Assembly: GCA_938083135.1 (NCBI GenBank)
Contig: CALLKY010000071.1
Location: forward strand, 1-62,250
Origin: an uncultured Alphaproteobacteria bacterium
GTDB lineage: Bacteria > Pseudomonadota > Alphaproteobacteria > Bin95
DNA: 62,250 bases
Reading direction: 5' to 3'
Shown here: positions 35,256 to 49,039 of the stretch, one piece after another
Layout of the letters: each line of letters starts with the position of its first letter
Numbering within the stretch: position 1 is the first letter of the stretch
The notes under the pieces: model-generated
The model's input: only the letters and a program-made list of their open reading frames with translations
Database searches by the model: none
Told to the model about the DNA's origin: nothing
Position numbers and translations under genes: made by a program

Positions 35256-36413
35256 TCACGCCGCATCCGCCTCTGGAGCGACCTTCGGCTCACCGAACAA
35301 ATAGCCCTGGCCCAGCGCCACATCGAACTCCAGCAGCTCAACAAGCTCACGCTCGGTCTCGACTTTTTCGACAATGAGTTCAATGCCATCAAGCGCCAGC
35401 CTGCGCTTCATCCGGTGTGCATCCGGGCCATTCTCCAACAGGAAAGCCGAAGCCGCCCCCTTAACAAATCGGAACCCGCGCCGACGCAGCAAAGCACCAT
35501 CGACCTCAAAGTCCTCAACACGATCCATGCTGAACCGAACGCCAATTGCAGTTAGGCCTTCCATATAGCGTTGAAGTTCCGCATCGCCCGGATCCCAATC
35601 ACCTTGAGAAATCTCAAAAATCAGGCTGGGCGCAAGTTCAGGATCCTCTTCTAGGAATTCGATAAAGTCGGCGAGGAAATCACGGTCTTTAAGCGTGTGA
35701 CGGGATACATTGCAGAAGAAACCCACATGCGCATTACGCGCCCGCGCCCTGCGTACAAGCTGGACCGCCCGGAACAGCAGGAGATTATCAATCGGCGCAA
35801 TTAAGCCCGCCTCCTCCGCCGCTGCAACATATGAGTCTGCGGGCAGCAATCCGTTGGCACCATCTGGCACACGACTGAAGCACTCATAATAACGACGCTG
35901 GCGTTGCGGTAGCGTCACGACTGGCTGCAAGAACAGGTCAATCCGCCCCTCCGCCAGTGCATCACGTACTTTATCAAGAACCTCTGCGGGCGACATATCT
36001 GGCACCGCTGGGCGCTTCGGGAATGGCGTCACCCGCTGCCCGCGAACATTCGCTGCCTGCAATTGCCCGAACTGGCGCTGCATGACGGCCATTTCATCGA
36101 CCATCGCCTTGATTTGCCGCTTGGCACCGCCGCCATCTGCAAGGGCTTGGTGCACGGCGATCATACCATCTTTGGCGAGTGCCAAATCTGTGTTAGCCTG
36201 ATCTAACGTACGGCGAACCTGCGTGAGTTCGCCCCGCAGACCGACAATGTCTTTGCGACGGAGCGCCATCTCCAATGCGACGCCGCCAAGTGCGGCTACA
36301 CCAACGCCAGCAGCCGCTGCAGGACCAATCGCGCCCTCAAGCTCCCATACACCTGCGCCTGCGCCAGCAGCAGCCAGCACCGTTCCACCTAAAATTGGCC
36401 AACGCAAATCCAT
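35256..36413 (-). CDS. degenerate EAL-domain membrane protein (TipF-like)
   Basis: 385 residues: two N-terminal hydrophobic helices (about 5-24 and 30-50), a coiled coil (about 55-125) and a C-terminal EAL-type domain (about 145-375). Signature residues of active c-di-GMP phosphodiesterases are altered: the EAL motif reads ECF, and the DDFG metal loop reads MDRVEDF. VEKVETERELVELLEFDVALGQGYLFGEP is near normal. It is therefore probably a c-di-GMP sensor or scaffold, not an enzyme. The layout matches Caulobacter TipF, which places the flagellum, but no flagellar genes are nearby. It stands alone. Confidence 0.8.
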   Translation of the reverse strand: MDLRWPILGGTVLAAAGAGAGVWELEGAIGPAAAAGVGVAALGGVALEMALRRKDIVGLRGELTQVRRTLDQANTDLALAKDGMIAVHQALADGGGAKRQIKAMVDEMAVMQRQFGQLQAANVRGQRVTPFPKRPAVPDMSPAEVLDKVRDALAEGRIDLFLQPVVTLPQRQRRYYECFSRVPDGANGLLPADSYVAAAEEAGLIAPIDNLLLFRAVQLVRRARARNAHVGFFCNVSRHTLKDRDFLADFIEFLEEDPELAPSLIFEISQGDWDPGDAELQRYMEGLTAIGVRFSMDRVEDFEVDGALLRRRGFRFVKGAASAFLLENGPDAHRMKRRLALDGIELIVEKVETERELVELLEFDVALGQGYLFGEPKVAPEADAA

Positions 36414-37725: not shown

Positions 37726-38607
37726 ATGGATCACGTTAAGGCCTACGAAAACCTACGCGGCTTGGTCTACACGCCTTTCTATGTCGGCATCGCTGAGGGT
37801 TTATTTGAGGCTGCCAACGTTAAATTAGAAGCCACACTCTCTCCATCTGGCGAGGAAACCGCTGCAGGTGCCGCTTCCGGCCGCGTTGATCTGGCATGGG
37901 GCGGGCCTATGCGTGTTATGGCGGCCTACGACAAGGATCCAGAAGGGGCGGATTTGCTCTGCTTCGGCCTTGCTGTTAGCCGCGATCCATTTCTAGTGAT
38001 CGCACCTGCGCCTGATCCTGGCTTTACTCCGGCGAAACTTGCCGGCCGCCGCCTCCTTGTTGCAACACACGCGCCAACGCCTTGGATGCTGTTGCAGGAA
38101 GATGTGCGCCGAATGGGCCTAGACCCAGCGGCAATCATCCGCGAAGACGGCGTAGACCCAGATGACGCCTTCCGCCGCCTCCAATCCGGCGATGCAGACT
38201 ATGTGCTGGCGTTTGAACCCTGGGGGTCACTGGCGGAACGAGACGGTCTTGGCGCGGTCGTATCTGCAGGTGCGAAGCGCGGCCCGTTAGCGTTTACAAG
38301 CTTTTACGCCAACCGCACATTCATGGAGAGCCGCCCCGAAAGCGTCGCTCGCCTAACAGATGGTCTTCGCCGTGCACTAGCCTATGTCCGTGGATCTGAT
38401 CCAGCGAAACTTGCCGCAATCATCAAACCCTGGTTTCCAGATTTCGATGAAGCTCTCCTGGCAACCGCAATCACCCGCTACCAACGCCTCGACCTATGGC
38501 CAAGCGACCCAACGATGACCGCTGACGGTTTCACCCGCCTAAAATCATCCTTGCTGTCATCTGGCTATATCAACAGCGCCCCCGCATTTGAACGGATTTG
38601 CCGCTAG
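37726..38607 (+). CDS. NMT1/THI5-like binding protein without signal peptide
   Basis: 293-residue protein of the periplasmic-binding fold used by sulfonate, pyrimidine-precursor and nitrate importers (YTPFYVGIAEGLFEAANVKLE, GRVDLAWGGPMRVM, VLAFEPWGS). Unlike transporter subunits it has neither a signal peptide nor a lipobox, and no permease is beside it. A cytoplasmic enzyme-like or sensor role, as in THI5 proteins, is possible. ATG 37726 starts the similarity; the frame is open 17 codons earlier. It is divergent from grxC (78-base gap), and its stop codon shares CTAG with the livF stop. Confidence 0.8.
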   Translation: MDHVKAYENLRGLVYTPFYVGIAEGLFEAANVKLEATLSPSGEETAAGAASGRVDLAWGGPMRVMAAYDKDPEGADLLCFGLAVSRDPFLVIAPAPDPGFTPAKLAGRRLLVATHAPTPWMLLQEDVRRMGLDPAAIIREDGVDPDDAFRRLQSGDADYVLAFEPWGSLAERDGLGAVVSAGAKRGPLAFTSFYANRTFMESRPESVARLTDGLRRALAYVRGSDPAKLAAIIKPWFPDFDEALLATAITRYQRLDLWPSDPTMTADGFTRLKSSLLSSGYINSAPAFERICR

Positions 38608-39362
38608 ATCGCCAAGTATTGCTGGCGGAGGTCTTCGTTTTCCAGGACCTCATTGGCCGTGCCGTCGAAGGCGACTGCGCCCATGTCTAGGATGATGGCG
38701 CGGTCAGCTAAGCGCAGGGCGGCAATGGCGTTTTGTTCGACGATGATTGTCGTCATGCCAAGCGCCTTAATCTGAATCAGGATCTTTTCGATTTCCTGCA
38801 CGATCACTGGTGCCAAGCCTTCGTAAGGCTCATCCAGTAGCAGCAATTTTACATCCCGTGCGAGCGCGCGGGCGACGGCTAGCATCTGTTGCTCACCGCC
38901 AGACATCGTGACAGCATCCTGCTTACGGCGCTCCGCGAGGCGCGGGAAATGCTCGTACAGGCGCTCAATGGACCAGCCGATGGGCGGTGCGATTTGGGCA
39001 AGCTGTAGGTTTTCTTCGACCGTCAGGCCCTGAATGATGCGGCGGTCTTCGGGTACAAGACCGATGCCTGCTTGTGCTGCCTGATGCGCCTTCATGTCAT
39101 GCAAGGGTTGGCGATCCAGCCAAATTTCGCCCTTATGCAATTCGGGTGATCCAGCGCGTGCAATTGTGCGAAGGGTTGAGGTTTTGCCAGCACCATTGCG
39201 GCCAAGCAGTGCCACGATCTCACCCTCGCGGATGTCGAAACCAACGCCCTGAACAATGTAACTCTCACCATAATAGGCGTGCATGTTCCGGCAGGAAAAG
39301 AATGCAGGAGCAGAGCCGTGGCCCTGGGTCGGCTTTACCTTCGGCGCGTCAAGATTGCTCAT
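38604..39362 (-). CDS. livF: branched-chain amino acid-type ABC transporter ATPase (LivF)
   Basis: 252-residue nucleotide-binding subunit with Walker A GRNGAGKTS, signature MSGGEQQMLAVARAL, Walker B LLLLDEPYEGLAP and switch His region VEQNAIAALRLADRA, as in LivF. It overlaps livG by four bases (ATGA-type). It pairs with livG to drive import by livH-livM. Last gene of the five-gene operon. Confidence 0.93.
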   Translation of the reverse strand: MSNLDAPKVKPTQGHGSAPAFFSCRNMHAYYGESYIVQGVGFDIREGEIVALLGRNGAGKTSTLRTIARAGSPELHKGEIWLDRQPLHDMKAHQAAQAGIGLVPEDRRIIQGLTVEENLQLAQIAPPIGWSIERLYEHFPRLAERRKQDAVTMSGGEQQMLAVARALARDVKLLLLDEPYEGLAPVIVQEIEKILIQIKALGMTTIIVEQNAIAALRLADRAIILDMGAVAFDGTANEVLENEDLRQQYLAI

Positions 39363-40117
39363 ATTTCCGCCCCTCCAAGATAGGCTTCCTGAACGCGGGG
39401 ATCGCCTTTTATGTCATTCGGCGCGCCTTCCGCAATCACATGACCTTGCGCCAGCACGCTGATTTTGTCCGCAAGCGAAAACACTACATGCATATCATGT
39501 TCAATCACGACCATAGTGATGCCACGGGATGCAATGGTTTTCAGCAGATCAATGGTGTTGTTCGTGTCCGCCCGCGCCATGCCAGCGGTCGGCTCATCCA
39601 GCAGCAGTAACTTAGGCTGTTGCACAAGGCACATTGCCAATTCCAGGCGGCGTTTATCACCGCGCGATAGGCTGTTGGCGACCATTGCATGTTTCTCGCC
39701 CAGGCCAACGTCGGCGAGCATTTCCTCAGCCTTGCCGCGGACATCATTCTGGCCCGCCATCGGCTTCCAGGCATTCAGCGAGAATGCGCCATCACGTTTG
39801 GCGAAATACGGGATCATGACGTTCTCAAGCAATGTAAGATCACCGAAAATCTCCGGTGTCTGAAACACGCGACTAACGCCGAGCTGGTTGATTTCGTGCG
39901 GTGCCAGCCCAATCAGCGAATGGTCCTCAAACGTGACGGTGCCAACATCGGGCGTTAACCGGCCAACAAAGCAGTTCAGCAAGGTTGACTTGCCTGCACC
40001 GTTCGGGCCGATGATCGCGTGCACGGTGCCCGGTTCGATTTCCAGGTTGACCTCATCCAGCGCCTTAAGGCCGCCGAAGCGTTTGTTGACGTTCTGAACG
40101 GAAAGAATGCTTGCCAT
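39359..40117 (-). CDS. livG: branched-chain amino acid-type ABC transporter ATPase (LivG)
   Basis: 252-residue LivG-type ATPase: GPNGAGKST, LSRGDKRRLELAMCL (signature), LLLLDEPTAGMARADT and VIEHDMHVVFSLADKI. The usual signature Ser-Gly-Gly is Ser-Arg-Gly here, a variation seen in some LivG proteins. ATG 40117 begins the family sequence, ten bases after the livM stop; an upstream extension of 17 codons within livM is rejected. Confidence 0.93.
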   Translation of the reverse strand: MASILSVQNVNKRFGGLKALDEVNLEIEPGTVHAIIGPNGAGKSTLLNCFVGRLTPDVGTVTFEDHSLIGLAPHEINQLGVSRVFQTPEIFGDLTLLENVMIPYFAKRDGAFSLNAWKPMAGQNDVRGKAEEMLADVGLGEKHAMVANSLSRGDKRRLELAMCLVQQPKLLLLDEPTAGMARADTNNTIDLLKTIASRGITMVVIEHDMHVVFSLADKISVLAQGHVIAEGAPNDIKGDPRVQEAYLGGAEI

Positions 40118-40127
40118 GGTCCCGCCC

Positions 40128-41276
40128 CTATTCCGCCGACGCCGGTTGCGTTTCTGTAGGCCCATCACTGTCGGCCTTGCGTTTAAACAGCACGCCGAAC
40201 CGGCGCACGCCTTCCATCAGGCCGCCCGGCAAGAAGATCACGATCACCATAAAGAGCGCGCCCAGCGTCAAATGCCAGCCTTCACCCACAAAGAGTGAAG
40301 CGACTGACACAACGGCATGCTGCAGTGTTTCCGGCAGGAAACTGAATGTGTTGAGCAATATGTTCTCGTTGAAGGCGGAAAAGATATTTTCAAAGTACTT
40401 GATGGCACCAGCGCCGATCACAGGACCAAGCAAGGTGCCAGTGCCGCCAAGGATCGTCATCAGCACGACTTCACCGGACGCTGTCCATTGCATGCGCTCT
40501 GCGCCCGCCAGCGGGTCCGTCACAGCGAGCAGTCCACCAGCAAGGCCAGCATACATTCCGGAAATCACGAAGGCCGCCAACGCATAGGGGCGCGTGTTCA
40601 GGCCCGTGTAGTTCATGCGGTTCTGGTTCGACTTCACGGCCCGCAACATCATGCCGAACGGTGAGCGGAAAATGCGCATCGAGATATAAAAGCAAAGGAT
40701 CAACACTGCTGCGCAGAAATAGAAACCCGGATAGCCCGTCATGTCGATGCCAAACAAATCAGACGATGGCAGAACCGCGCCATAATCCCGCCCGAACGCG
40801 ACATCCAACACCCTGGGATCAGCTTGGCGAAGTTGCAGGCCCGTTTCGCCATTCGTGATTGGTGTCAGCACAGAATAAGCCAGATTGTAGCTCATCTGCG
40901 CGAAAGCCAGGGTTAGGATCGAGAAGTAAATACCCGTCCGGCGGAGCGAAATGAAACCGATCAATGCTGCAAACAATCCACCCAGCAGCGTCGCCAAGAG
41001 AACCGCTGGCAGCGGGTTCATGCTGAGCAGCTTGAACGTCCACACAGCCGTATAGGAGCCGATGCCCAAAAAGGCTGCATGGCCAAAGGAGAGATACCCC
41101 GTCAGCCCAAACAGGATGTTAAAGCCAATGGCGAAGATGCCGAAGATCGCAAACTTCTGCAGCAAATCAGGATAACCAGCACCGAAGGGCTGCAGAATAA
41201 CAGGGCCTGCAAGGACCGCTGCTGCGAAGCATAGAAGCAACACCAGATCGCTTTGTTTTTTGATTATCGCAACCAT
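40128..41276 (-). CDS. livM: branched-chain amino acid-type ABC permease (LivM)
   Basis: 382-residue inner-membrane permease with the LivM pattern [21 protein letters not shown] and the later [32 protein letters not shown]. About ten membrane helices. It forms the channel with LivH. The C-terminal tail beyond the last helix is cytoplasmic and charged. Spacing is four bases to livH and ten to livG. Confidence 0.93.
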
Positions 41277-41280
41277 CAGA

Positions 41281-42309
41281 TCAGCCCTCCATCATGCCTT
41301 TGCGGCCCATAAGGCCACGGGGCCTCGCGAGCAGCACGACAACAGCGATCAGGTAGATGATGATTTGGTCGATCCCGGGCAGGATCTGCTTCACTTCCTC
41401 CATAGAGGCTAAACTTTGCAGGATTCCAAGCAGGAAGCCCGCAACAACTGCGCCGCCGAGCGATCCCATGCCGCCCACAACAACGACAACGAAACTCAGC
41501 ACCAGAAAGTCCATGCCCATGTGGTAATCCGGGCTAAGGATCGGCGTGTACATAACCCCGGCAAGGCCCGCGACGACCGCCGCCAGGCCGAAGACAATCG
41601 TGAACTTGCGGTCGATGTCTATCCCCAGCAGCCCCACTGTCTCCCGGTCTGCCATCCCCGCACGGACAACCATGCCGAAGGTGGTGAACTGCAGAAAGGC
41701 GAATACGCCAGCGATCACAAGTGTGGAGAATAAGAAGTAGATCAGCCGCCAGGCCGGATACACGACATTGCCCGCGTCAAAACCAATCATGACGCCAAAA
41801 TCAAGCATGCCCTTTGCTGTATCTGGCGCAGGTTGCGGGATTGGGTTAGCGCCGAACTGGCTCTTCACCAATTCCTGAATGACGATGGCCAGGCCAAACG
41901 TCACCAAAATCTGTTCAGCATGTGGGCGTTTATAAAAATAGCGGATAAGGCCCCGCTCCATCGCGACGCCAATAAACAGCATTACGGGGATGGCGAGTAA
42001 TATGGATAATGGCACTGAATAGTCGATCATCCAGACGCCAACGTCACCAAACCAACTTTCAATGTAAGGCGTGCGAATTTCCATCGGCGTGCCCCAAGCG
42101 GTGAGCTTGGTCGGATCGAGCACGACTTTCTCTAAAGTAAACAACGCCTTGATGCTGACGGCGCAAAATGCACCCATCATAAACAGCGCACCATGAGCAA
42201 AATTGACGACGCCAAGCGTGCCGAAAATGATCGTGAGACCCAAGGCAATCAACGCATAGGCGCCACCTTTGTCCAGGCCGTTCAAAATCTGCAGCAGTAT
42301 AGCATCCAT
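41281..42309 (-). CDS. livH: branched-chain amino acid-type ABC permease (LivH)
   Basis: 342-residue permease beginning [30 protein letters not shown] with the LivH hallmark [15 protein letters not shown] and later [26 protein letters not shown] long extra loop (about residues 60-95, [13 protein letters not shown]...) between early helices makes it larger than Liv proteins of about 290 residues and recalls the urea/short-chain amide type importers. ATG 42309 starts the similarity; a strong hairpin lies between this gene and the binding-protein gene. Confidence 0.92.
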
Positions 42310-42385
42310 CGTATTTCCCCCCGCGGGATTGGCCGTGCGATAGGCCGTCAATTGCACCGGTAAAACCCTCGGCGCTCAGAGCAAA

Positions 42386-42415
42386 CCCGGTCGCTCCAAT
42401 ATGGGAGCGACCGGG
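42386..42415. terminator. strong intercistronic hairpin between binding-protein gene and livH
   Basis: Perfect 12-base inverted repeat CCCGGTCGCTCC / GGAGCGACCGGG with a six-base loop, just after the binding-protein gene and before livH. There is no T run on the minus strand, so it is more likely an mRNA-stabilising or partial-termination stem that raises binding-protein output over the permeases. Confidence 0.65.
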
Positions 42416-42439
42416 GCCGTCAATCACAGCAACGAAGAG

Positions 42440-43783
42440 TTATGCGCCGTCGTTGTAAGGACCAAGCTCACCACCTAGCAAGGAGGCCGGATATTCGACC
42501 TGCGCGCGCGGCGTAACTTCGACGACTTCGAGAACGTCGAACTTGGAGGATGGGTTTTCCTTGCCCTTCACGACCAACACGTCTTTGAAGCACTGGTGAT
42601 CTTCGGCGCGGTATTCCGTTGGACCATTGCCAAGGCCATCGAACTTGAAGCCTTCCAATGATTTGCCAACGCCGGACGGACGGAACGTACCGGCCCGCTG
42701 TGCAGCATCTGCATAGAGCAGCGCCTGGCAGTAGGTGGTGTGCGCCGCCTGTGATGGTGGGAAGCCATACTTCTGGCCAAAGGACTTAACGAAGGCCTTG
42801 GAGCCTTCGTCCTGCAAAGACCAATGCCAGTTGGTGGAGCCAAAGATCCCTTTGACGTTCTCGCCAGCACCCTGCGCCATCAGGCGGGAGTAGAGCGGAA
42901 CAACAATGGCGAAGTCTTTGCCATTCACCTGCTTGTCACGAAGACCGAACTGAACTGCCTGGGTCAGGGAGTTCACCATGTCGCGGCCATAGTGGTTCAA
43001 TACCAGCGTATCAGCGCCGGAGTTCAACACAGGCGTAATGTACTGGGAGAAGTCACCAGCGCCCAAGGGCGTGCGAACGGCGGCGGCTGTGTTCCAGCCA
43101 AGCTGCTCGGTGTACTTCTTAATGGAGCCTTCCTGTGACCAGCCCCACGTGTAATCAGCCGTGAGGTGGTAGGCGTTCCGCTCCGTGCCGAAGTTATTTT
43201 TCAGCACTGGCGCAAGTGCAGCGCCCGTCATCTCCGTGTTGAAGAAGTGACGGAAGCCGTTAGCGCGCTTATCCTTACCCGTGGTGTCGTTGGAGTGGGT
43301 GAGGCCAGCCATGAAGATCACGCCTGCGTCCTGGCAAAGGCCCTGGACAGCAATCGCAACGCCGGAGGAAGACCCGCCGGTGATCATGACAGCGCCGTCT
43401 TTTTCGATCATGCGCTTAGCAGATGCACGAGCAGCGTCAGACTTGGTCTGGGTGTCACCAGTGACGAACACGACCTTCTTGCCGTTTACGCCAGCGCCGG
43501 TTAGCGCCTTGGAGGAGAAGGTGTTCAGCATGCCGCCGTCGCCTTCGCCATTGATGTGCTCAACAGCCAGCTGATAAGCGCGCAGTTCGTCCGCGCCTTC
43601 GTCGGCATACGCGCCGGTCTGTGGCACGTTGAAACCAAGCGTGACCGTGGAGCCTTTGGGCTCGTTGGTGTAACCGGCAGCCCAGGCTTTGCTGGTGAAG
43701 ATTGTCGGCGCCGCGAGTGCGGTCGTTGCAGCAGCTGCGCCCCGCAGCAAGCTGCGTCGGCTTACTTTTGTAAAATTGGCCAT
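42440..43783 (-). CDS. Liv-type ABC transporter substrate-binding protein, Tat-exported
   Basis: 447-residue periplasmic binding protein of the type I fold. The N-terminus has a twin-arginine signal (VSRRSLLRGAAAATTALAAP, cleavage near KAWA), so it is exported folded. The body matches amide/amino-acid importer binding proteins (GFNVPQTGAYADEGADELRAYQLAVEHIN). ATG 43783 is used; a longer frame of ten codons exists upstream. It is the first gene of the operon binding protein > livH > livM > livG > livF. The ligand may be an amino acid, amide or short-chain acid. Confidence 0.92.
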   Translation of the reverse strand: MANFTKVSRRSLLRGAAAATTALAAPTIFTSKAWAAGYTNEPKGSTVTLGFNVPQTGAYADEGADELRAYQLAVEHINGEGDGGMLNTFSSKALTGAGVNGKKVVFVTGDTQTKSDAARASAKRMIEKDGAVMITGGSSSGVAIAVQGLCQDAGVIFMAGLTHSNDTTGKDKRANGFRHFFNTEMTGAALAPVLKNNFGTERNAYHLTADYTWGWSQEGSIKKYTEQLGWNTAAAVRTPLGAGDFSQYITPVLNSGADTLVLNHYGRDMVNSLTQAVQFGLRDKQVNGKDFAIVVPLYSRLMAQGAGENVKGIFGSTNWHWSLQDEGSKAFVKSFGQKYGFPPSQAAHTTYCQALLYADAAQRAGTFRPSGVGKSLEGFKFDGLGNGPTEYRAEDHQCFKDVLVVKGKENPSSKFDVLEVVEVTPRAQVEYPASLLGGELGPYNDGA

Positions 43784-43958
43784 GTGAAGGGTCCCTCCCA
43801 GAACGTTTCCCAAAACGTTTCGTTGATTAAACGCACGGGACGCATCACGCCCCCCGCTGGCTTATTTGCCTGTTTCTAGGGTCGCGGAATTTGTGACAAT
43901 CCACAATAAGATACTGATATTTATTAATATTTTTGTGAATTTGAATATATTATTCATT

Positions 43959-43991
43959 GCTGTACTGTAAATTTCTTTACAGAAATACAGC
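43959..43991. promoter_or_regulatory. nested inverted repeats, probable operator for the XRE/ScfR regulator
   Basis: Inner arms CTGTAAA (43965-43971) and TTTACAG (43976-43982) with a four-base spacer sit within outer arms GCTGTA (43959-43964) and TACAGC (43986-43991). The site ends 17 bases before the regulator's ATG in an AT-rich divergent region shared with the Liv operon. Position and symmetry suit an autoregulatory site for a dimeric HTH protein. Confidence 0.6.
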
Positions 43992-44008: not shown

Positions 44009-45601
44009 ATGGTTAGTGCAGTGCGGCAGAGATTGATCGGTCCGCGTGTGCGGGCGCGAAGAACCGCGCTTGAATTGACTCAAGCGGCACTGGCCGAACG
44101 CGCAGGCATCTCAACCTCGTATCTGAATCTAATCGAGAACAACAAGCGCCCCGTCGCAGGGCGGCTCCAAATTGCGCTGGCCGAAGCCCTAGATATAGAT
44201 ATCTCCGCCCTCAGTGGTGCCGCAGAACAACAGCTCACCGACGCCCTCAGCCTCGCTGCCGCTGATCCTGCCCTTGGCAGCGCAGCGCTGACACCAGCAG
44301 ATGCAGCCGAACTTGTCGGCCATTACCCCGAATGGGCCAGGCTGACAGCGCGCGCCGTCGCCGCTTACCGCGAGCAGGCCTCACAGACTGTCGCCCTGAC
44401 CGACCGTTTGGCCCATGACCCTGTCATCGCCAACGCCGTCCATCAGATGCTGACCAATATTGCCGCTGTTCGATCTACAGCTGAAATCCTGACCAGCGTC
44501 CAAGATTTGCCGCCTGAACAGCTCCAACGATTTCATGCAATCATTGAAGAGCAATCGAGCGCCCTGACAGATGCCAGCGGCACCTTGGCTGCGGTCTTTG
44601 ATCCGACCAATACCCATCTTCGGCCCGTCACCAGTCTTGATGTGATTGAAGACGCCTTCGCCCGACGCCAGAACCGCCTGCCCGCGCTGGAGGACGCCGT
44701 AACGCACCTGCGCGCGCGATTGCACATTGATGCAGAGGCAACGGGTGCAATTATTGACCAAGCTCTGGCCGGCCATTGGAAATCGCTCGGCTTAAAGATT
44801 GACAGCACCGGGACTGCAATGGTGCCAAGCCAGCCTTCGCCCAGCACGCTTTCTCTGCCCCGCGCTGCCCCTGCTGCCACGAACCGGGCCTTCCTTGCGC
44901 TGAAGCTGCTGGAACGGGTGCTTGCTAACCAAGTTGAGACGGAATTGTCAGGTGAATTGACACCGGACGGCCCATCCGATGCCCCGCCTCTGGCCATAGG
45001 ATCACCAGCGGCAACGGACTTGCGGGCGGCATTCGTGCAATACGCAGCCGATGCGCTGCTCATGCCCTATGGCGCATTCTTGGCGGATGCAGTCGCATGG
45101 CGCTTCGATATCGCGATGCTTGCAGCATCTTATGATGTTGATGTTGCCGCCGCCGCTCGCCGTTTAACCACCCTGCAACATGGCGGCGCCCCAGCTTTTG
45201 CGATGCTTGCCGTCAATCCATCTGGCGCGCGGCTAGACCGCAGGCGAACCACAGACGTCGCTATGCCCAGGTTCGGCGCCGGATGCGCACTTTGGGCGAT
45301 CCACAGTGCATTTAATGGGACGGAACGCGCCCGCGAGCAAATCATCGAAATGCCAACAGGAGAGCGGCTTTGGACAATCGCTATTGCAATGTCCGCTCCC
45401 GGCAAGAGCGCTGATGCCGCGCCACCCCGCCGGGCCTATATGCTGGCGACACCTGCCATTCACGCCGGCACATTTTCTGGCGAAGACACAGGCCACGTCC
45501 CCTCTGTCGCGGCGGGAATTACCTGCGAACTCTGCCCACGTGGGGACTGTGCATACCGGGCGGCTGCGCCCATTTTGGCCGAAATCACCGGAAAAGCGTA
45601 G
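44009..45601 (+). CDS. XRE/ScfR-type transcription factor with a DHp-like helical segment
   Basis: 530 residues. An HTH of the Cro/C1 type (about 9-68, RARRTALELTQAALAERAGISTSYLNLIENNKR) is followed by a helical part, then a degenerate M78/IrrE-like region (about 335-400) without HExxH, and the ScfR C-terminus with the cysteine signature CELCPRGDCAYRAAAP. Family members respond to acyl-CoA levels and control propionyl-CoA, acetate or glyoxylate genes. The middle (about 138-195) aligns with the histidine-kinase dimerisation helices: VHQMLTNIAAVR against SHELRTPMTSIR of the neighbouring kinase, then STAEIL and QRFHAIIEEQSSAL. His145 falls at the phospho-His position. It is followed by a receiver, a small membrane protein and a symporter-kinase. 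Confidence 0.85.
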   Translation: MVSAVRQRLIGPRVRARRTALELTQAALAERAGISTSYLNLIENNKRPVAGRLQIALAEALDIDISALSGAAEQQLTDALSLAAADPALGSAALTPADAAELVGHYPEWARLTARAVAAYREQASQTVALTDRLAHDPVIANAVHQMLTNIAAVRSTAEILTSVQDLPPEQLQRFHAIIEEQSSALTDASGTLAAVFDPTNTHLRPVTSLDVIEDAFARRQNRLPALEDAVTHLRARLHIDAEATGAIIDQALAGHWKSLGLKIDSTGTAMVPSQPSPSTLSLPRAAPAATNRAFLALKLLERVLANQVETELSGELTPDGPSDAPPLAIGSPAATDLRAAFVQYAADALLMPYGAFLADAVAWRFDIAMLAASYDVDVAAAARRLTTLQHGGAPAFAMLAVNPSGARLDRRRTTDVAMPRFGAGCALWAIHSAFNGTERAREQIIEMPTGERLWTIAIAMSAPGKSADAAPPRRAYMLATPAIHAGTFSGEDTGHVPSVAAGITCELCPRGDCAYRAAAPILAEITGKA

Positions 45602-45691: not shown

Positions 45692-46057
45692 ATGACCAAA
45701 ACTGTCCTCATTGCAGAAGATGAGCCGCATATCGTTGAGCTGCTAACCTTCCTGCTAGAGCGCGAAGGCTATGCCGTAACCGCAGCCGCCGATGGCGAAG
45801 CCGCATTGACGGTATTAGCCAACACGACGCCTGACTTGGCTGTGTTGGATGTCATGATGCCAAAACAGAGCGGATTTGATGTCCTGCGTGAAGCGCGTAA
45901 CGACCCCAGGCATAAGGATCTTCCGATCATTATTCTGACCGCGCGCGGACAAACCCGTGATCGGGAAACCGCGATTGAAATGGGCGCGGACGCATTCATC
46001 GCCAAACCATTTTCCAACCAAGATGTGCTCGCGACATTAAGACGGCTCGGCGCATGA
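45692..46057 (+). CDS. single-domain response regulator (receiver only)
   Basis: 121-residue CheY-like receiver with no output domain: acidic pair in AEDEPH, phospho-acceptor Asp53 (LDVMMP), Thr83 and Lys105 (AKPF). AGAGGAGG lies 10-15 bases before the ATG. It overlaps the next gene by four bases (ATGA) and is 90 bases after the XRE regulator. It is likely phosphorylated by the symporter-kinase; lacking an output domain, it must act through a partner protein. Confidence 0.95.
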   Translation: MTKTVLIAEDEPHIVELLTFLLEREGYAVTAAADGEAALTVLANTTPDLAVLDVMMPKQSGFDVLREARNDPRHKDLPIIILTARGQTRDRETAIEMGADAFIAKPFSNQDVLATLRRLGA

Positions 46058-46329
46058 ATGCGACAGACGCCCAAACCAGTACATCAGATCAAGCTGACCG
46101 CGTCCTTATCCAACAGTCTGAGCGGCGGGACCGCAGCCGGGCGGCGGCGTTGCCTCTCATTGGGTTTTTCCTATTAACGCCTCTCTTTATTCGCGTGTTC
46201 GCGGCTGATGCCACCGTGCTCGGCGCGCCATTGGTGGTTATCTACATTTTCGGCATTTGGCTTGGCCTCATCATCTGCGCAGCACTCCTGGCAAAGCGGT
46301 TGAAGCGCGCCGACCATGCTTTCCGCTAA
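46054..46329 (+). CDS. small two-helix membrane protein, symporter-subunit-like
   Basis: 91 residues: charged soluble N-terminus (about 1-30), two membrane helices (about 33-50 and 58-82) and a basic end (KRLKRADHAFR). The layout and the APLVVIYIFGIWLGLIICAALLAKRL segment recall the DUF4212/DUF485-type small proteins that accompany sodium:solute symporters. It overlaps the receiver gene by four bases and the symporter-kinase gene by 14, so its product is made in step with the kinase. A role as subunit of the fused transporter sensor is inference. Confidence 0.75.
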   Translation: MNATDAQTSTSDQADRVLIQQSERRDRSRAAALPLIGFFLLTPLFIRVFAADATVLGAPLVVIYIFGIWLGLIICAALLAKRLKRADHAFR

Positions 46330-49039
46330 CGTTCTTTCGGCAATCTGCGTCGGCTATGTCGCGGTCCTGTTCGTCACCGCCTATCTGGGCGACAGGAAGG
46401 CACGCTCTGGCAAACCAGGGTGGCTTGAATCGCCACTGGTCTACACGTTTGCTATCTCCGTCTATTGCACATCCTGGACGTTCTATGGCGCCGTTGGGTC
46501 TGCCGCGCGAAACGGGTTGGAATTCGTTACGATCTATCTGGGGCCGACACTAGTTTTTGTCGGCTGGCTGCACCTTCTCAGCAAGCTGGTTCGGATTGCC
46601 CGGGCCAACAACATCACATCCATCGCGGATATGATTTCGTCCCGCTACGGCAAAAGCTCCGCCATCGCTGTTGTCGTCACGCTGATTTCAGTGGTCGCTG
46701 CGACGCCTTATATCGCCCTGCAGCTAAAGGCCGTCGCCACGAGCTTTCAGGTCATCGTCGCTGGCGCGGATCCCGGCGTCGCGACCGCTGCGGGCGGGGT
46801 TGCGGCACCCCCCACCTTCGAAGCGGCGTTCTGGGTCGCTGCTGGCATGGCTGCATTCACATTGCTGTTCGGCGCGCGCAACACGGATACCAATGAACGA
46901 CACCATGGCGTCGTCGCCGCCATCGCACTGGAAGCCATTGTAAAGCTGACAGCATTGATTGCCGTTGGCGTATTCGTGGTTTTTGGCATGGCGGATGGCC
47001 CGGCTACCATCTTCGAGCGCATGCCGCCAGATCTGCTGACACCCCGTGATGACTTTGCAACCCGTTGGATCACGCTAATCCTGCTATCCAGCGTCGCCAT
47101 TATCTGCCTGCCCCGCCAGTTCCACGTCACCGTCGTCGAAAACGTTGATGAACGGCAGGTAGCGACGGCGTCCTGGCTGTTTCCGCTATATCTTTTCCTG
47201 ATCAGCATTTTCATTCTGCCGATTGCGATTGCAGGCCTTTCCTTCCTGCCCGCTGGCGCTGACCCGGACCTATTCGTGCTGACATTGCCCATGGCGGCTG
47301 ATCAGCATGGCCTCGCACTCCTTGCATTCCTTGGCGGATTTTCATCGGCGACTTCCATGGTCATCGTCTCCAGCATCGCGCTGGCGATCATGATTTCAAA
47401 CCATATCGTCATGCCGCTAATGCTAAAAACGCCTTGGGCCGAGCGGGCGCAGTCCGGTGATATCCGCCGCATGCTGCTGCGCAGCCGCCGCATCAGCATC
47501 GTCGCTATTTTGATGCTGGGCTTCTTGTATTTTCGGCTGAGCAGTGGGTCTGAAGGCCTTGCCTCCATTGGGCTCATTGCCTTCGCTGGCGTCGCACAAG
47601 CAGCACCCAGCATGATTGGCGGTGTGTTCTGGCGCATGGCGAACGGGCGCGGTGCGCTGGCAGGCCTCATCGCCGGATTCACAATCTGGGCCTACACGCT
47701 TTTCCTGCCAAGCTTCGGCCCAGACGTCATATTCACAGCCAGCGCATTGGCAGATGGGCCATGGGGCATTGGCATCCTACGGCCCTACGCGCTGTTCGGT
47801 TTGACCGGGCTTGACCCACTGACCCATGCGCTGTTCTGGAGCTTCACAGCAAATATTCTGCTGTTCGTCAGTATTTCGCTACTGGCCGACCAACGGCCCC
47901 TGGAACGATTGCAGGGCGCGCTCTTTGTCGACGTATTTCGCATGCCGGGCTCCAACTCGCATCGCTACATCCAGCGCTCTGTCACCGTGACGGACCTTTT
48001 TGTCCTGGCCCAACGCATTATGGGGCCGAATGAAGCACAGCGGATGTTTGCTGGGTTCGCACGCCAGCAGGGCTTAGATGGCGATATGCCGGTCGCGACC
48101 GACGCCTTTATCGACCATCTGGAGCGCCGCCTCGCCGGCTCGATTGGTGCCGCATCCGCTCGCACCATGATCTCCCAGATTGCCGTTGGTGAAAGCATCA
48201 GTCTGGCTGAACTTACCAAGGTGGCGGATGAGGCCGCTCAAGCCATTGAATATAGCCAGCAGGTCGAAGAAAAATCCCTTCAGCTTGAAGCGACTGCACG
48301 GGAACTCCGTGAGGCCAACCGGCTGCTGAAAGAACTGGACGCCCGCAAGGATGATTTCCTGAACCAGGTCTCCCACGAACTTCGCACGCCCATGACATCA
48401 ATCCGGTCATTCTCAGAAATACTGCTTGAAAATGCGGATATTGATGGCCCGCGCTCCGACCGTTTTCTGTCCATCATCCATGATGAAAGCATCCGGTTGA
48501 CCCGCCTGCTCGACCAAATCCTTGAATTATCCCAAATGGAAACGGGCCGGGTAGAATGGCCCCTCTCTGCGGTTAACATTGATAAAGCACTGGGTCGCGC
48601 CGCTGCCGTGTCTGAAGGCATCGCATCTGAGGCAGGCGTTCAGTTGGCTTTAAGCCTGAACGCCCCGGGTGCCGTAGCAGAGGCAGAGGCTGACCGGCTT
48701 GTCCAAGTCTTCGTCAACTTGATCAACAACGCTATTAAGTACGGGGCAACGAAGGGTGAGGCTATTGAGATAAACAGCAGTTTCGCAGATGGCCATTATC
48801 GCATGACGATTCGAGATTGCGGCCCCGGCATTCCCGAACGCGACCGTGAACGCGTCTTCGAGAAGTTCGTACGTGGTGCCCAACCGGAAACCAGCGGCGC
48901 TGGCCTTGGCCTGCCAATCAGCCGCGAAATCATTCGCCAATTCAGCGGTGATCTGGTTCTGCTTGATGGTCCGGAAGGCGCTGGCGCAGTCTTCCAAGTC
49001 ACTCTGCCAGCAAGTGTTCGCGCGGCTGCTGCGGAATGA
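46316..49039 (+). CDS. sodium:solute symporter/histidine kinase fusion sensor
   Basis: 907 residues. About residues 1-560 are a 13-helix sodium:solute symporter domain (SSS; e.g. YCTSWTFYGAVGSAARNGLEF, TSIADMISSRYGK), then a linker and a kinase: H box SHELRTPMTSI with His687, N box NLINNAIKYG, G1 DCGPGIP, G2 GAGLGLPI. Such fusions (CrbS, CbrA types) sense or carry acetate, amino acids or other solutes and control carbon-use genes via a response regulator. The adjacent regulator is receiver-only, which differs from the CrbR/CbrB arrangement with a DNA-binding response regulator. Convergent with recR (10-base gap). Confidence 0.95.
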   Translation: MLSANVLSAICVGYVAVLFVTAYLGDRKARSGKPGWLESPLVYTFAISVYCTSWTFYGAVGSAARNGLEFVTIYLGPTLVFVGWLHLLSKLVRIARANNITSIADMISSRYGKSSAIAVVVTLISVVAATPYIALQLKAVATSFQVIVAGADPGVATAAGGVAAPPTFEAAFWVAAGMAAFTLLFGARNTDTNERHHGVVAAIALEAIVKLTALIAVGVFVVFGMADGPATIFERMPPDLLTPRDDFATRWITLILLSSVAIICLPRQFHVTVVENVDERQVATASWLFPLYLFLISIFILPIAIAGLSFLPAGADPDLFVLTLPMAADQHGLALLAFLGGFSSATSMVIVSSIALAIMISNHIVMPLMLKTPWAERAQSGDIRRMLLRSRRISIVAILMLGFLYFRLSSGSEGLASIGLIAFAGVAQAAPSMIGGVFWRMANGRGALAGLIAGFTIWAYTLFLPSFGPDVIFTASALADGPWGIGILRPYALFGLTGLDPLTHALFWSFTANILLFVSISLLADQRPLERLQGALFVDVFRMPGSNSHRYIQRSVTVTDLFVLAQRIMGPNEAQRMFAGFARQQGLDGDMPVATDAFIDHLERRLAGSIGAASARTMISQIAVGESISLAELTKVADEAAQAIEYSQQVEEKSLQLEATARELREANRLLKELDARKDDFLNQVSHELRTPMTSIRSFSEILLENADIDGPRSDRFLSIIHDESIRLTRLLDQILELSQMETGRVEWPLSAVNIDKALGRAAAVSEGIASEAGVQLALSLNAPGAVAEAEADRLVQVFVNLINNAIKYGATKGEAIEINSSFADGHYRMTIRDCGPGIPERDRERVFEKFVRGAQPETSGAGLGLPISREIIRQFSGDLVLLDGPEGAGAVFQVTLPASVRAAAAE

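Follow-up and report, generated by a model that had tools for sequence, protein, structure and literature searches.

A DHp-like insert in an alphaproteobacterial XRE/ScfR-type regulator as a candidate docking site for a stand-alone receiver

What does a receiver control when it carries no output domain of its own? The question is raised by a locus in the window, the whole stretch of 62,250 nucleotides analysed here, where genes for an XRE/ScfR-type transcriptional regulator, a stand-alone receiver, a small membrane protein and an SLC5-type histidine kinase follow one another, divergent from an ABC transporter operon. A sequence-only reading of this DNA had proposed that the regulator carries a kinase-like dimerisation and phosphotransfer (DHp) segment and is the missing output of the receiver. 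The features of the locus are as follows.

38604-43813, minus strand: LIV/Urt-type ABC operon (substrate-binding protein, two permeases, two ATPases), the likely target, from ORFs and neighbourhoods.
43966-43989, plus strand: candidate operator TGTAAATTTCTTTACAGAAATACA (TGTAAATTTCTTTACA at 43966-43981) in the divergent promoter region; the match alone is not rare in the window.
44009-45601, plus strand: XRE/ScfR-type transcriptional regulator, 530 aa, with the DHp-like insert (ORF; HTH_3 and ScfRs Pfam matches).
44048-44206, plus strand: HTH_3 DNA-binding domain, residues 14-66 (Pfam).
44327-44416, plus strand: long helix ahead of the insert, residues 107-136, predicted by AlphaFold2 (pLDDT about 72-86).
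44420-44599, plus strand: DHp-like helical hairpin, helix 1 at residues 138-163 and helix 2 at 169-197 (HisKA, model, Foldseek and HK853 profile match).
44441-44443, plus strand: codon of His145, the phospho-His position (H in 59 of 67 family members).
44633-45178, plus strand: degenerate IrrE/M78-like (PrpR domain III-like) region (Pfam; PrpR and IrrE rows in Foldseek).
45188-45586, plus strand: ScfRs C-terminal domain, residues 394-526 (Pfam), with Cys 426, 506, 509 and 514 nearly invariant.
45692-46057, plus strand: stand-alone receiver, 121 aa, with D10, D53, T83 and K105 (Pfam, receiver alignment).
46054-46329, plus strand: small membrane protein, 91 aa, conserved in the operon (ORF, related loci).
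46316-49039, plus strand: SLC5/SSF-domain histidine kinase, 907 aa (Pfam SSF, HisKA and HATPase_c).
48347-48547, plus strand: HisKA (DHp) domain of the kinase.

The receiver had been described as lacking an output domain, and Pfam searches of its 121 aa gave a receiver match only. The active site is intact: all 150 aligned receivers have D10, D53 and K105, with T or S at position 83. Related receivers end at most about 30 residues past the receiver match, and no output domain was found on them once unrelated receivers from the whole-genome search had been set aside. The kinase, matched by the SSF (24.3 bits), HisKA and HATPase_c models, does lie downstream of the regulator; the claim that it is two genes away did not hold, since the genes for the receiver and the 91-aa protein intervene and it is the third. 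In nearly all related loci the hydrophobic 91-aa protein is encoded between the receiver and the kinase, its gene overlapping both neighbours; no Pfam family matched it above cut-off, and it probably goes with the SLC5-type kinase. An SLC5-domain kinase is also found in CrbS/R, CbrA/B and RpuS/R, where it governs how small carbon compounds are taken up or used, and in the SLC5/STAC systems characterised to date the kinase signals to a response regulator that has a DNA-binding output domain of its own (PMC9100948). Here, by contrast, the receiver lacks an output domain, and the kinase is not a hybrid. Two candidate relatives were set aside: PrlS/PrlR of Brucella, in which the kinase is a hybrid and the regulator a LuxR protein (PMC7918813), and the Caulobacter XRE regulators RtrA/RtrB, which are transcriptional targets of SpdR and not receiver-docked (PMC6530869).

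The architecture of the regulator is that of the ScfR family (RamB, MccR/PrpR, PccR), with HTH_3, an IrrE-like region and a ScfRs domain bearing four Cys. PF01381 (40.5 bits) and PF09856 (72.9 bits) were both matched above cut-off, the family profile matched PrpR with an E value of 1e-101, and PrpR, IrrE and HTH proteins made up the Foldseek rows obtained with the full regulator model. The RamB equivalog model NF038139 gave 123.4 bits against an NCBIfam cut-off of 700. In two reports, ScfR regulators are described as binding acyl-CoA thioesters, PrpR as carrying a [4Fe4S] cluster and RamB as binding intermediates of the ethylmalonyl-CoA pathway (PMC6765138, PMC10370305). The M78/IrrE-like region 44633-45178 is unusually degenerate, scoring 14.5 bits against up to 65.6 bits in relatives. 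Relatives were collected by scanning one genome per species in 84,980 species, which yielded 80 loci; 67 distinct insert-bearing regulators make up alignment A1, whose members share descent, so that the counts below are of non-independent events. HTH_3 and ScfRs were matched by all 67, and the Cys quartet (C426, C506, C509, C514) is nearly invariant among them. Across the 80 loci, an insert of about 60 residues, placed between the HTH and the acyl-CoA-binding half (about residues 138-197), occurs in the alphaproteobacterial relatives, whereas ordinary ScfRs, from Myxococcota and others, lack it (non-insert relatives among L060-L079). Ordinary ScfRs also differ in having no known wiring to a two-component system. 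At the place of the insert PrpR has domain II, which is not visible in the crystal (PMC6765138).

The identity of the insert was addressed at the level of the family. The window regulator alone matched HisKA at residues 140-184 with an E value of 0.0019 and 18.7 bits, below the Pfam gathering score of 26.9, and this match is only suggestive; it is doubtful when taken alone because it ranks last of 32 HisKA-like places in its own genome. Its relatives carried the claim of a HisKA/DHp-like middle further. HisKA was matched at E values of 0.01 or lower in 22 of the 67 insert-bearing regulators, and four of them (L154, L083, L149 and L168) exceeded the cut-off with 31.9-38.7 bits, the best being L154 (1e-9, 38.7 bits), whose segment reads THELRTFLTSIRSFSEIL. 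When the segment profile was searched against the PDB, the kinase HK853 was the top true single-stretch match (5e-6), followed by other histidine kinases and DivL (0.003). Rows of immunoglobulin-binding protein A in the same search were rejected, being summed weak repeat matches that are singly not significant. The spacing from His to Phe is exactly 30 in the regulators and in the operon kinase alike. In a tree of DHp segments all regulator inserts fell on one side of a branch with 99/98 support, which fits a single origin; the 67 columns were too few to resolve which kinase is closest to them. That the insert is homologous to DHp domains is hardly open to doubt. The regulator nevertheless departs from functional histidine kinases, which have an H box (HE/D..T/N-P) and a CA domain: neither Glu at H+1 nor Pro at H+5 is conserved, and Pfam gave no HATPase match.

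The predicted fold points the same way. AlphaFold2 placed helices at residues 107-136, 138-163 and 169-197, with pLDDT mostly 86-95 in the hairpin, and the segment modelled alone gave the same helices as in the full regulator. The model is a two-helix hairpin of the HisKA/DHp type with His145 on helix 1. HK853 chains, mostly from HK853-RR468 complexes, came first when the segment model was compared by Foldseek (E 0.04, probability 1.00). In VIA-align HK853 scored Z 8.7, tied with unrelated hairpins (Z 8-9). Helical hairpins are common and unrelated ones score equally, so that the fold comparison supports a DHp and is not by itself proof of one.

The alignment of His145 with the phospho-His of DHp domains was borne out, and the residue is mostly kept: position 145 is H in 59 regulators, F in 6, Q in 1 and Y in 1. 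T, S or N occupies H+4 in 66 of the 67, I160 (H+15) and F175 (H+30) are invariant, and S156 (H+11) is found in 64, E159 in 62, L161 in 60 and R155 in 55. His145 was present in 55 of 55 A1 regulators whose genes adjoin that of the receiver or kinase, and was lost in 8 of the 12 others. Conservation of this kind could be attributed to a phosphorelay, in which the kinase phosphorylates Asp53 of the receiver and the phosphate passes to His145, as from Spo0F to Spo0B; the phospho-His form of a one-component-type regulator, active or inactive, would then be the output, combined with acyl-CoA sensing. Spo0B and ChpT are DHp-like hairpins without kinase activity that are met by receivers, and the lack of kinase features in the regulator would thus suit a relay. 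Those proteins are stand-alone phosphotransferases that pass phosphate on, whereas in the regulator the hairpin is fused to a DNA-binding output and the His is not universal. Three independent lineages of the regulator tree have replaced His145, by F, Q or Y, without losing the remainder of the segment, and L stands in its place in L049, a linked locus outside A1; the departures at H+1 and at H+5, where true kinases keep Pro, also speak against a relay. An association of His loss with unlinked genes was not significant (three independent pairs, p 0.25), L049 being a linked exception. His145 thus seems to matter in most lineages and yet to be dispensable, since it was lost at least three times while the segment stayed. 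The relay is considered unlikely. Docking of the receiver on the hairpin is favoured over phosphotransfer because His145 appears dispensable and because in Caulobacter the DHp of DivL, with Tyr for His, reads the phosphorylated lone receiver DivK, a reversed flow (PMC4211667). DivL/DivK resembles the present pair in the lone receiver and the dispensable His; DivL differs in being a pseudokinase with PAS and CA domains, whereas the regulator has a DHp without CA inside a transcription factor.

Residues that set receiver specificity were then compared. Counted from His260 of HK853 (named in a PDB entry title), positions H+8, H+11 and H+15 of the regulators correspond to A268, A271 and T275, which by the title of entry 4jau are residues swapped to rewire receiver specificity. 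At H+11 and H+15 the regulators match the operon kinase and differ from the other kinases of the genome. At the three positions the SLC5 kinase family reads S, S and I and the regulators A/S, S and I, both with R at H+10; among the other kinases of the genome G prevails at H+11, V/L at H+15 and L/I at H+10. For the window protein alone, helix 1 is barely more similar to the cognate kinase than to other kinases, and this slight difference made a family-level test necessary. Log-odds over H+6 to H+16 were positive, that is cognate-kinase-like, for 59 of the 67 regulators and negative for 22 of the 23 other kinases of the genome, all 23 of which the window regulator exceeds with its 4.8. The receiver-facing residues of helix 1 are kept in the regulators, and beyond F+9 of helix 2 the kinase-conserved residues are mostly lost, one Leu excepted. 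Judged from these positions, the half of the DHp that contacts the receiver seems to have been kept and the half that contacts the ATPase domain lost.

The co-occurrence of the genes was examined across the class. A full-length kinase ortholog (E below 1e-200) was found in 63 of 387 genomes and an insert-bearing regulator in 52 of 387, all 52 within those 63 (hypergeometric p 5e-54, uncorrected for kinship); the presence of the insert was read off the alignment in each case except G358, where the gene is split into two ORFs. At seven of seven further loci where the kinase does not adjoin the regulator, it was found elsewhere in the genome, and in G014, G299, G196, G118, G205 and G327 the two genes are on different contigs. 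ScfRs without the insert do not track the kinase and are present in kinase-less genomes. Because it holds where the genes are unlinked, the co-occurrence is more than operon hitch-hiking. In G002, a genome of the same genus, the receiver has gone from the operon (G002:C112:24536-28851) and lies on another contig (G002:C141:38535-38891), which provides a naturally occurring case for testing signalling between unlinked genes.

Receiver docking is not separable from direct contact with the kinase on these data, since both proteins accompany the insert. The hairpin might pair with the kinase in a mixed four-helix bundle, or have His145 phosphorylated in trans, the receiver being no partner. Besides co-occurrence with the kinase, this arrangement could draw on the receiver gene being out of the operon in the same-genus genome and in Terasakiella. 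Those genomes, however, keep a stand-alone receiver elsewhere (52% identical in the same-genus genome; the best receiver match is free-standing in two of three Terasakiella genomes), and the regulators have lost the kinase-conserved residues of helix 2 and the Glu at H+1 while keeping the receiver-facing ones. Pairing with the kinase is therefore regarded as improbable.

No insert-bearing regulator was detected in 11 of the 63 kinase genomes, and there the receiver must have another output. In kinase lineages without the regulator a large protein adjoins the same lone receiver (L182:9933-12011, L176:10013-12334) and may be this other output; that of L182, 692 aa, has a C-terminal DEDDh exonuclease domain and, by eye, a PAS-like stretch. 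Such lineages, together with the fact that DHp domains are dimerisers, would also suit a segment that is a mere dimerisation hairpin of kinase origin, without a signalling role, the receiver acting elsewhere. This is the least probable of the explanations, and a very improbable one: conservation is among the highest at H+11 and H+15, which lie beyond the core positions, and even where the genes are unlinked the insert occurs only in genomes that have this kinase. Contact with the receiver, or with the kinase, is very probably what the insert is for.

The likely target of the regulator was sought in its neighbourhood. At nearly all insert-bearing loci the regulator gene and the gene for the substrate-binding protein of one and the same LIV-type ABC operon are divergently oriented, an arrangement seen across many alphaproteobacterial families; ordinary ScfR loci have no divergent ABC operon. 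Of the 67 regulators, 58 have TGTAAA/TTTACA upstream; 200 Markov shuffles gave 11 on average and 19 at most, and inside the ORF the motif occurs in 1 of 67. This motif is a candidate operator. Operon and motif are kept even where kinase and receiver are elsewhere. At L154 a sodium/solute symporter gene replaces the operon. NCBIfam urea and LIV (branched-chain amino acid) models matched the operon below cut-off, and lactate, considered as its substrate, found no support in the literature searched. Farther along the minus strand, at 35256-36413, an ORF of 385 aa has a C-terminal half that looks EAL-type by eye.

Docking of the receiver is favoured by the pattern of co-occurrence, by the specificity residues held in common with the kinase and by the fold, and the reading that fits best is that the ScfR-type protein would be the missing output of the receiver. 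The three checks named in the sequence-only reading, on the predicted fold, on conservation of His145 and on co-occurrence, all turned out in its favour. A HisKA-type DHp would have been inserted once into an ScfR-family factor, probably as a copy from an SLC5-type kinase like that of the operon. The membrane kinase would sense a solute, probably a small carboxylate as suggested by SLC5 and the ScfR kin, and would phosphorylate the stand-alone receiver at Asp53. The receiver would then bind the regulator hairpin on a surface equivalent to the one presented to it by the kinase, and its docking would rearrange the HTH dimer, so that the divergent ABC operon would be controlled jointly with the acyl-CoA/Fe-S half. 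Docking of the phosphorylated receiver on the hairpin, with control of DNA binding, is on balance the probable main mechanism.

In the literature searched, which excluded most subscription journals, no paper on a DHp/HisKA segment in an XRE/ScfR regulator was found. For Paracoccus denitrificans, one report places the ScfR gene Pden_1785 beside a two-component system, with no follow-up and, in the text consulted, no mention of a DHp segment (PMC10370305); the Paracoccus locus L038 has an insert-bearing regulator together with kinase and receiver genes. Bacterial receivers without output are numerous and their targets mostly unknown, and here a candidate output can be read from sequence. If the proposal is true, the transplanted DHp would be a new way to couple two-component signalling with a one-component regulator that senses metabolites, and the principle of DivL, a DHp that reads a receiver, would be widened from kinases to transcription factors. 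It would also give a testable assignment to a widespread alphaproteobacterial system whose only recognisable sign at present is an XRE regulator next to a kinase.
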